Part shown: positions 40,333-43,174 of the stretch, in pieces
Numbering within the stretch: the stretch's first letter is position 1
How the letters are laid out: every line of letters begins with the position of its first letter
Source: Porphyridium purpureum
Lineage: Eukaryota; Rhodophyta; Bangiophyceae; Porphyridiales; Porphyridiaceae
Direction of reading: 5' to 3'
Length of the DNA: 64,000 nt
Assembly: GCA_008690995.1 (NCBI GenBank)
Contig: VRMN01000003.1
Coordinates: 1,364,001-1,428,000, forward strand
Program-made: the position numbers and the translations under genes
The notes under the pieces: generated by a model
Databases searched by the model: none
What the model was told of the DNA's origin: nothing
The model's input: only the letters and a program-made list of their open reading frames with translations

Positions 40333-40470
40333 CGAAGGCTGCACGCCAGCGAAATTTCGACGAGCAACCCGTCGGCGAAATTGACACGAGGCGGTGGCGC
40401 GACGTCGAGAAGGATCCCATTAGAAGTAGGAACCGAGCTGATTTCGTTTCTGAATGGCATTCAAAAGTGT

Positions 40471-40486
40471 GGTGCGTAAATACACC
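40471..40486 (-). promoter_or_regulatory. Histone H3 3' stem-loop-like element
   Basis: On the minus strand, GGTGTATTTACGCACC lies 125 bases downstream of the H3 stop. The same 16 bases plus ACA follow H4. A GAAACGA box sits 21 bases further on (40444-40450). Confidence 0.65.
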
Positions 40487-40527
40487 GTTTTGATTCTTTG
40501 ACAGCAAGCCGTCTTGATGAACTCATC

Positions 40528-40587
40528 CTTTTTGTTTTTCTTTTTGTTTTTCTTTTTGTTTTTCTTTTTGTTTTTCTTTTTGTTTTT
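40528..40587. repeat. 12-bp tandem repeat in H3 3' region
   Basis: Five copies of CTTTTTGTTTTT between the converging ends of the repeat-protein gene and histone H3. On the H3 strand it is an A-rich 3' UTR tract. Confidence 0.9.
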
Positions 40588-40611
40588 CTCCCCAGCCCTT
40601 CCATGGTGGGC

Positions 40612-41022
40612 TTACGCGCGCTCGCCACGAATGCGACGCGCCAGCTGGATATCCTTGGGCATGATGGTCACACGCTTGGCGTGGATAGCGCACAAGTTGG
40701 TATCCTCGAACAAACCCACCAGGTATGCCTCGGAAGCCTCCTGGAGCGCCATGACGGCCGAGCTCTGGAATCGCAAGTCCGTCTTGAAATCCTGCGCAAT
40801 CTCACGCACCAGGCGCTGGAAGGGCAGCTTGCGGATCAGCAGCTCGGTGCTCTTCTGGTACTTGCGAATCTCACGCAGCGCCACGGTTCCCGGGCGGTAC
40901 CTGTGCGGCTTCTTCACTCCACCCGAGGACGGCGCCGACTTGCGCGCGGCCTTGGCTGCCAGATGCTTACGAGGCGCCTTGCCTCCCGTCGACTTGCGCG
41001 CCGTCTGCTTAGTACGAGCCAT
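40612..41022 (-). CDS. Histone H3
   Basis: 136 codons. The sequence follows canonical H3: [19 protein letters not shown] start with K4, K9, K14 and K18, K27 in AARKSAP, K36 in [12 protein letters not shown], and the ARRIRGERA end. Differences from animal H3 include K18-HLAA-K23 instead of QLAT, SAPSSGG instead of SAPATGG, a Lys for Arg at 53, and Ser for Cys at 96. It is divergently transcribed from H4, has a pyrimidine-rich upstream sequence (GA-rich on the sense strand) and no intron. Confidence 0.99.
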
Positions 41023-41524
41023 TTCTCCTCACCCTCCAATTGCTCTTCTCTACCTTCTCGCCTCTCACCTGCTCTCTCAGTTACCTTTTTCACGGCATAT
41101 TGTCAACCCACGACCGCGCCACCCTGTTTATATACGGAGCGCACTTGTCGAGTAAATCATCGAAACGCATGCATTTCGTGACAGCGCGACCGATGGCCTG
41201 CCAACATGACAAAAATGACACCAAAACATACGCGTGCGGCGCAGCATATAAAAATGAACGTGTTTTTATATCCGCGCTCATGCGCATATAAAAATGAACG
41301 TGTTTGGGCAGTTTCAATGACCTCTACTAAAAAGGACGCGTTCTTGTAGGGGCGCGCTGCTTCGTGTTCTGCTTGGCAACTGGCTGGCTGGACAGAACGC
41401 GCGCGCGCTCGTACTTAAAAAGGACCAGAGCGGTGTGAAGAAGAGATTAGAAGTGGTTGATAGATGAAAAGAGGAAGAGAAGGAAGAGAGGAGAGAGGTA
41501 GAGAAGAACAAGTGCTCAGGCATC
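41023..41524. promoter_or_regulatory. Divergent H3/H4 promoter
   Basis: A 502-base gap. A 21-bp direct repeat (core TATAAAAATGAACGTGTTT) occurs at 41245-41265 and 41285-41305, 40 bases apart. TATA-like ACTTAAAAAG precedes H4 near 41413. Both genes have GA-rich leaders (H4: about 41440-41520; H3: about 41023-41085 read on the minus strand). Confidence 0.65.
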
Positions 41525-41839
41525 ATGGCAGGACGCGGGAAGGGAGGAAAAGGTTTGGGCAAGGGTGGCGCCAAGCGCCACCGCAAGGTGTTGCGCGATA
41601 ACATCCAGGGCATTACCAAGCCGGCCATTCGCCGCTTGGCCCGCCGAGGTGGTGTGAAGCGTATCTCGGGGTTGATCTACGAGGAGACACGCAACGTTCT
41701 CAAGGTCTTCCTTGAGTCTATTATTCGTGACGCAGTCACGTACACGGAGCACGCGCGCCGAAAGACCGTCACCGCTATGGATGTCATCTATGCGCTTAAG
41801 CGCCAGGGCCGCACCTTGTACGGTTTCGGGACGGCCTAA
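41525..41839 (+). CDS. Histone H4
   Basis: 104 codons, nearly canonical: [20 protein letters not shown] tail with K5, K8, K12, K16 and K20, and the GRTLYGFG end. Notable changes: Ala in place of the N-terminal Ser after Met, Asn for Gly at 56, K77R in TEHARRK, and a C-terminal TA in place of the last Gly, giving one extra residue. No intron. The stop codon is followed by an A-rich 3' region and, 124 bases on, the same stem-loop-like element as H3. Confidence 0.99.
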
Positions 41840-41963
41840 GTGGCTGTGCTTTGCTGTCGACGTGCAACAAGAGAGCAGAGAAAAAAAAAATTCAAGAAAA
41901 GTCCAAAAAGAGCAAAGTCATGGGCAGCTCGCGCGGTCCAAAGACACAAAAAAACAACAAAAA

Positions 41964-41979
41964 GGTGTATTTACGCACC
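41964..41979 (+). promoter_or_regulatory. Histone H4 3' stem-loop-like element
   Basis: GGTGTATTTACGCACC, identical to the element downstream of H3, starting 124 bases after the H4 stop. It is preceded by an A-rich stretch and followed by ACA. A GAAACGA box sits 18 bases further on (41997-42003). Confidence 0.65.
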
Positions 41980-42003
41980 ACAACATCGGAAAGCTTGAAA
42001 CGA

Positions 42004-43174
42004 CATCAGTCCATCCCTTTGCTGCAGCTCGAAGCTCAGCAAAATTAGCGTCCTCTTCTTGTCCTGTAGCTCAAGTAGGTCGCCAGGCTGGTTATACTTT
42101 TGGGTCCGGGCGGGGTGCTTAGAAATAGGGGCACTGTTTAGGCCCGTTTATTTCCCCTCGTTGGTCCTAAATTCATGACAAGTGCTGCAAACGGGAAACG
42201 ACCTGCGAGCACCAAGCTGGCTGCTTACGTTTTGGTGGAGATACTGGATGAGCCTGTGCATTCCACTGGACGACTTGAAGCTCAAGCATGACCAGAAGTT
42301 GGTGCGAACCGGCGATCCTCAAGCGAGAATCGTTTTCCCTCACAATTTTGTCTGTGCAACCTCGTCCACTTCAGCCTTCTGGGCGAGATTGCGGTCCGCG
42401 ACACAATCGATGCGAGACGGAAGACGCCATCTTGCCTGGACAGGATGTGCGCACACACTACATCAGTCGAGGCATTCCAAAAAGCGGAGAAAGGGGCATG
42501 AGCCAGCAATGCGCATGATCCATCGGCGACACAGTGTGTGCCGCACGACCGCGACGCCTAAGCTGCCATGCAAGTCAGTGCTGGCAGCCGTCACTCACCC
42601 CCAACATGCACTCCCCCCGGTGCGCCGCACAGGGTATCGCACCGGAGCGCCGCACGAGCAACCGAGCACGGCTCATGCCAAGGGCATGCCAGAGACCATA
42701 AAGCCCAGCGGCCGGTCAGAGCGTGCTCCGGCTCGCACGGTGCATTGGCTCATGTTATGCGCGTTCTCCGAGCGTTGATTCCGACGTCAGTTCGCATTGC
42801 GGTTTGAGCCGCCTGGCAGCGAAAACTTGACCAAAAAAAAGTTCCCGTGCGACTGGCCGCCGTGGTTTGAGTAGTGTACAGTTGCGTTTTCCCAAGACTT
42901 CTTGGTAGGGTACAGTTAAGGGGTTGAGCCGATTGGAGAAACTGAGCCGGCGCGAGGCGACACGCGCATGCACCCGAGCGAGGCGAAGCGTTGAAAGAGG
43001 TGCGCGGCGACGAGGAAGAAGCAGGAGGAGCCTCGGCAGGATGGTTGGATATATAACGGGCGCCGCGGAGCGCGGCACTCTGCTCATCAGCCATGGCGCA
43101 GCGTCAAGACAACGGGAAGGCAAAGGGCAAATCAGAAAGAGTTGACTTGGCACAGAGAGCAAGAACGAGCAAGG
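42004..43174. other. Intergenic region, H4 to NhaC-like gene
   Basis: About 1.2 kb. Contains TGTACAG at 42875-42881 and GTACAG at 42910-42915, 260-300 bases upstream of the antiporter start. The open frame 42182-42778 has no recognisable motif and a composition unlike the neighbouring proteins, so I do not call it. Confidence 0.5.

Follow-up and report, generated by a model that had tools for sequence, protein, structure and literature searches.

Six canonical histone genes of the red alga Porphyridium purpureum carry, past their stop codons, an invariant element that is very probably a histone 3' element of the SLBP type, with a stem weaker than that of animals. The genome searched contains 22.16 Mb in 46 contigs, one of its proteins matches a Porphyridium purpureum record at 100% identity, and the window (the whole stretch of DNA analysed, 64,000 nucleotides) lies within contig C2; the initial annotation, made from the window alone, had already suspected a red alga, correctly. 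The locus contains an H3 gene of 136 amino acids (40612..41022, minus strand; PF00125 166 bits) and an H4 gene of 104 amino acids (41525..41839, plus strand). The two genes are each followed, as the initial annotation stated, by an identical 19-mer, GGTGTATTTACGCACCACA, located at 40468-40486 on the minus strand and at 41964-41982 on the plus strand, which is composed of the 16-mer GGTGTATTTACGCACC (40471-40486 and 41964-41979) and an invariant ACA. An A-rich 5' flank precedes it, AAAAC at 40487..40491 for H3 and AAAAA at 41959..41963 for H4, and a downstream box follows it, GAAACGAAATCAG at 40438..40450 (minus strand) and GAAACGACATCAG at 41997..42009 (plus strand), respectively. For the 16-mer, 0.03 occurrences are expected in the window at up to two mismatches, and two copies were found in none of 100 shuffles. 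The H3 3' untranslated part between stop and stem-loop also contains, at about 40528-40590, a repeated unit of about 12 nt (TTTTTGTTTTTC).

H3 and H4 diverge from a common promoter (41023..41524), which contains two copies of ACRYRTTCATTTT on the minus strand, at 41251-41263 and 41291-41303. All four divergent core-histone promoters that were looked at contain this motif (the window promoter, L013, L017 and L018, with 2, 2, 1 and 1 copies), and it is absent from the five other upstream regions compared, those of the H3 variant, cenH3, the H2A variant, SLBP and the LSm11-like protein. From its distribution, it is likely a histone-specific control site.

In the 22.16-Mb genome the 16-mer has six exact copies, three per strand, and the reversed pattern has none. 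All six are in the sense orientation, 115–160 nt past the stop codons of core histones (H3 and H4 twice each, H2A and H2B once each), and they form three pairs, each at the outer ends of a divergent gene pair: the H3/H4 pair of the window, another H3/H4 pair on C2 and, on C43, a pair of H2A and H2B. The 16-mer starts 126 nt after the stop in H3.w, 125 in H4.w (the window genes), 122 in H3.2, 115 in H4.2, 155 in H2B.1 and 160 in H2A.1. The exact element is thus confined to the sense 3' flanks of canonical histone genes, which is the location of an SLBP-type signal. Allowing up to two mismatches added five further matches, versus 11 for a control; each overlaps an open frame of at least 90 codons, and none has a histone match (PF00125 scan) closer than 100 kb on its own contig.

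Beyond the two genes first described, the element therefore extends to four more core histone genes, and it is missing from six others among the 12 examined. It was not found after the second H2A/H2B pair, the H3 variant, the cenH3-like gene or the H2A variant (best matches 9–10 of 16 positions in 450 nt), nor after H1 (best matches 10 of 16 within 1151 bases). The second H2A/H2B pair (H2A.2/H2B.2; L018, C43:1254576-1257893) encodes proteins identical to H2A.1/H2B.1 and has the promoter element, with neither stem-loop nor box; the two pairs, with the same proteins and with or without the stem-loop, are a natural pair for probing its role. The check was confined to genes read as histones, the histone-fold matches L019 and L023-L026 being read as non-histone proteins, and the names cenH3 and H2A variant, like those of the Porphyridium Sm/LSm proteins below, are our reading unless database-named. 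Since the PF00125 matches include neither known H4 gene, further H4 copies lacking the element may exist.

The conserved unit spans about 24 nt (AAAA-M-16-mer-ACA), with diverged surroundings. The AAAA at -5 to -2, the 16-mer and the ACA are invariant across six genes of four histone types, whereas mean pairwise identity in 10-nt bins is 24–44% at -60 to -11 and 23–29% at +11 to +60 (the bins are ungapped, which makes the variably spaced box invisible in them). The coding sequences have diverged as well: 39 of 137 third positions are different between H3.w and H3.2, and 36 of 105 between H4.w and H4.2, the encoded proteins being identical within each pair. Judged by this contrast between an invariant unit and diverged flanks and third codon positions, the unit is under selection. 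The paralogous gene pairs and the identical 16-mer could also be read as a functionless leftover of recent duplication or gene conversion, but the element is common to H2A, H2B, H3 and H4, four types that do not stem from recent duplication, and together with the divergence this largely refutes such an origin, to which we assign a negligible probability.

The initial annotation had matched the 16-mer to the 6+4+6 layout of the metazoan histone stem-loop. The GG..CC base, the UUUA loop, the ACA and the A-rich 5' flank are all present, but the predicted RNA fold has five base pairs (GGUGU/GCACC, one of them U-G) and a six-nucleotide loop, AUUUAC, at -5.0 kcal/mol, instead of the 6-bp stem and 4-nt loop of metazoans; the element is therefore termed a variant, outside the metazoan form. 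The upper stem is weaker, as had been noticed, with the U-G pair retained and the topmost A-C opposition unpaired in the predicted fold. With its flanks the element reaches -6.5 kcal/mol, versus -9.3 for the human one. As the sequence is identical in all copies, it provides no covariation support for the hairpin, and an Rfam scan of the region returned three weak matches, none of them a histone stem-loop. SLBP contacts the G-C second pair, the U at loop positions 1 and 3, the A-rich 5' flank and the ACA 3' flank of its target; the corresponding features (GG..CC base, loop U 1 and 3, A-rich flank and ACA) are kept in all six genes.

The position of all six copies at the outer ends of divergent pairs would also suit an element acting at the DNA level, such as a terminator, an insulator or a replication-linked protein site. 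We regard this as very improbable, because the orientation is always sense, the UUUA loop, the 5' A-run and the 3' ACA are strand-specific, the antisense hairpin is weaker (-3.2 versus -5.0 kcal/mol) and an SLBP is encoded.

The alga encodes an SLBP: a six-frame scan of the genome revealed a single RNA-binding domain of this family, intact and located on the minus strand at C46:72810-73016 (PF15247, 92.6 bits, cut-off 27; 88.7 bits in a second scan). The match spans positions 1-70 of 70 and contains no stops. Its best PDB match is 4l8r_C, 'Histone RNA hairpin-binding protein' (E 6e-19), which we take to be the human protein; the Porphyridium domain has QIDYGKNT.AYD.Y, TPEK and KRSWAEQVKLWRVALH.FDPP, its TPEK standing in place of the TPNK of 4l8r_C, and the RSW stretch is retained. 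The Porphyridium protein has an acidic C-terminal tail (SDSDDMDD), and fly SLBP likewise ends in an acidic tail. The stem-loop reading is strongly supported by the location of every genomic copy at a histone gene and by this SLBP. We propose that the RNA AAAAM-GGUGUAUUUACGCACC-ACA would fold into a short hairpin of five base pairs with UUUA in its loop, that the Porphyridium SLBP would bind the hairpin unit AAAACGGUGUAUUUACGCACCACA, and that the pre-mRNA would be cleaved a few nucleotides past the hairpin, near the ACA. The mature canonical H2A, H2B, H3 and H4 mRNAs of the six genes would then end in the hairpin, and this ending would couple them to S phase. That these messages lack a poly(A) tail we regard, from the sequence evidence, as likely.

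The GAAACGA block that the initial annotation saw after both H3 and H4 is part of the boxes described above, although genome-wide the box, GAAACGAMRTCAG, is present in only four of the six element-bearing flanks. It starts 21 nt after the 16-mer in H3.w, 18 in H4.w, 22 in H3.2 and 16 in H2B.1. Compared with the H3.w box, 12 of 13 positions match in H4.w, 12 of 13 in H3.2 and 13 of 13 in H2B.1, scores that were equalled or bettered in 1, 8 and 0 of 20000 mononucleotide shuffles, respectively. H2A.1 matches at 7 of 13 positions, only GAAACG followed by GTGTTCAG (13177 of 20000 shuffles as good), and the box is absent from H4.2 (6 of 13; 18526 of 20000). By these scores we take the box to be real in four genes and non-universal. 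It would most likely be the histone downstream element, lying 16-22 nt past the hairpin.

Some histone genes of animals and protists yield polyadenylated mRNAs that contain a stem-loop, and the Porphyridium element might similarly lie inside polyadenylated messages and serve their stability or translation. A poly(A) site further downstream is compatible with the observations, and the canonical H2A and H2B genes that lack the element must end otherwise. Even so, we judge this unlikely, since the invariant unit ends at the ACA, like an end-forming hairpin, and the box stands at a processing-like distance from it in four of the six genes.

Regarding the machinery that would cut at the hairpin, we propose that a guide RNA, in an snRNP with an LSm11-like protein, would pair with GAAACGAMRTCAG. 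Scanning the genome for LSM domains gave 22 matches, 18 of them above the cut-off, which we read as the usual Sm/LSm set plus a few others, including P0002 (C11:805731; database name 'Small nuclear ribonucleoprotein Sm D-like protein'); a separate protein, L035, is read as SmD2. The window itself contains an LSM-domain protein gene (26151-26345, minus strand; 71.8 bits), read as LSm6-like. P0002 aligns with vertebrate LSm11 through LDFESEMFNAELAL with LDVSSDSFDPLLAL and LRGYIHGRLVAFDK with LRGVCTGFLVAFDK, and related stretches are found in P0003. Its N-terminal motif aligns to the FLASH-binding part of LSm11; passages of PMC7026596 place FLASH binding in LSm11 residues 20-50, which hold a motif like that of P0002. 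The roles of LSm10 and LSm11 are treated in parts of PMC7614891, and LSm11 is mentioned in passing in a section of PMC12898128. In addition, P0002 has a four-residue, LSm11-like LRG insertion that is missing from 12 of the 13 other Porphyridium Sm/LSm proteins aligned, including SmD2; SmE has residues in two of the four columns (the alignment was made without LSm3, LSm7 and L044).

The profile comparisons give a similar but less uniform picture. A P0002+P0003 profile gave 95% probability (E 3e-8) with vertebrate LSm11, in a match beginning at the N-terminal motif, and 0.4% with LSm10; P0002 alone reached 84% (E 8e-6) against LSm11, and the SmD2 control 80% (E 1e-5), in a match confined to the Sm domain. 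When a vertebrate LSm11 HMM was run over 4260 open frames plus P0003, the three top ranks were P0003 (30.6 bits), P0002 (19.3) and SmD2 (13.3); an N-terminal-only LSm11 profile over the same open frames found neither P0002 nor P0003. In a PDB profile ranking of P0002, SmD2, SmB and SmE chains stand above LSm11, and a fold comparison did not single out LSm11 for P0002. A short Sm-domain tree places P0002/P0003 beside SmB, in an unsupported position (15.9/43), and does not group them with LSm11. A vertebrate LSm10 profile run over the open frames, from which intron-split genes could escape, did not find LSm10; its best matches are read as LSm2 and SmD3 and hence provide no LSm10 candidate. The search for the two U7-specific proteins thus yielded an LSm11-like protein, with LSm10 not recognised among the LSM-domain matches.

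The small RNA complementary to GAAACGA that the initial annotation had envisaged was not found by the Rfam U7 model over the genome (best 15.5 bits, cut-off 34) or by patterns joining a box complement to an Sm site. The pattern TTTCGTTT-gap-ATTTNT gave 44 matches, versus 24 for the reversed control, and CTGANNNCGTTT-gap-TTTNT gave 33, versus 32; inspection of all 44 of the former and of 12 of the 33 rows (11 stretches) of the latter revealed no clear U7 candidate. An uninterrupted stem of at least nine pairs follows the Sm-like site in 3 of 55 candidates, versus 36 of 1500 random 60-mers, a rate that predicts about 1.3 such candidates, which is no clear excess. A scan of the retrieved genome stretches for a U7-like RNA, including the top match near U2, found nothing convincing. 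Two individual candidates were set aside: L053, in which AATTTGTTTAG follows the box complement, lies within a 226-aa open frame, and a perfect 13-nt complement to the box at C43:2496967 has neither a TATA box nor a good hairpin. One stretch, L091 (C43:5525166-5525185, minus strand), could pair with the box at 11 of 13 positions and carries a CATTTGT and, 12 nt further on, a 9-bp hairpin; it is the best of the U7-like RNA candidates still standing, unproven and not clearly above chance in its sequence features. As U7 RNA is short and diverse, its absence from these searches is weak evidence.

Two further observations were made in the course of these searches. The U2 gene (77.5 bits; L050, C46:91923-91948) and a U5 candidate (L051, C13:749099-749124; 32 bits, under the Rfam cut-off of 40) have in common the upstream motif TATAWAAAG-N7-GCGGYGCTGG, at the same spacing. 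The motif has no third place in the genome at up to two mismatches (L097 has three), and Rfam over 17 sources in the follow-up of this motif found U2 alone. Near-identical or identical stretches occur on two contigs each (C22:604419/C23:19692, C1:85934/C6:1854 and C13:5203/C43:4281551), which may reflect haplotypes or duplicated contigs.

The combined stem-loop and U7-type processing suggested by the initial annotation hence fares differently in its two parts: the stem-loop is carried by the six histone-bound copies and the SLBP, while for U7 the box in four genes and the LSm11-like protein speak in favour, with LSm10 and U7 RNA not found. Cleavage might equally well proceed by a U7-like guide snRNP as not. 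A substantial though lesser possibility is an SLBP stem-loop working apart from any U7, in which hairpin and SLBP are inherited from an ancestor, the ordinary CPSF complex or another factor reading the box does the cutting, and P0002 is a divergent SmD2 or SmB paralogue. This would accord with the genome searches and with the Sm-domain tree, as well as with the protozoan stem-loops and SLBP homologues reported in a passage of PMC12819152 (citing Davila Lopez and Samuelsson 2008) and with the description of the U7 snRNP as metazoan-specific in part of PMC7026596. On the other side stand the LSm11-like insertion and the motif in the FLASH-binding region of P0002 and P0003, and a box at the animal U7-target position in four of the six genes. 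Our preferred explanation, an SLBP-type stem-loop ending with a U7-like box and snRNP, is taken as a whole probable. More tentatively, we suggest for red algae at large that an LSm11-containing Sm ring and a guide RNA pairing with GAAACGAMRTCAG act with SLBP to produce non-polyadenylated histone mRNAs.

Histone mRNAs lacking a poly(A) tail are regarded as characteristic of animals, with scattered relatives among protists. Among the papers listed in searches of an open-licence library, judged mostly by titles and abstracts, none reports a red-algal histone stem-loop, and in the accessible portion of a paper on algal H2A variants that includes Porphyridium (PMC12459048) the term 'stem-loop' has no occurrences. 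The present data indicate that the histone messages of P. purpureum probably end in an animal-like hairpin, and that a related cutting machine is perhaps present in this alga. If true, U7-like guided cleavage here would contradict the metazoan-specific view of the U7 snRNP, and U7-type processing would predate animals and possibly be ancestral to eukaryotes. A red alga with stem-loop, SLBP, box and LSm11-like protein in a compact 22-Mb genome makes the age of the machine testable.

The element resembles the metazoan SLBP stem-loop in being a 16-nt unit past core histone stops with a GG..CC base, a UUUA loop, an A-rich 5' flank, an ACA and an encoded SLBP, and also in that the histone variants checked lack it. 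It differs in its five base pairs instead of six (top A-C), in its stem sequence, in its start 115-160 nt past the stop and in its one fixed sequence in six genes. Animal H1 genes of the replication-dependent class carry the stem-loop, unlike the H1 gene of Porphyridium. With U7 snRNP processing (U7 snRNA, LSm10, LSm11 and FLASH) the alga has in common a box 16-22 nt past the hairpin in four of six genes, as well as an LSm11-like protein whose N-terminal motif aligns with the stretch of LSm11 that binds FLASH; LSm10 and U7 RNA were not found in our searches, and GAAACGAMRTCAG is unlike the purine box that forms the animal downstream element. Finally, stem-loops occur in some protozoa, in Perkinsus and not in dinoflagellates according to a passage of PMC6723414. 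As far as these sources go, the protist stem-loop and SLBP systems (Davila Lopez and Samuelsson 2008 via PMC12819152; Perkinsus, PMC6723414) and that of Porphyridium all belong to non-animal eukaryotes, and the alga differs from them in having a downstream box and an LSm11-like protein besides.
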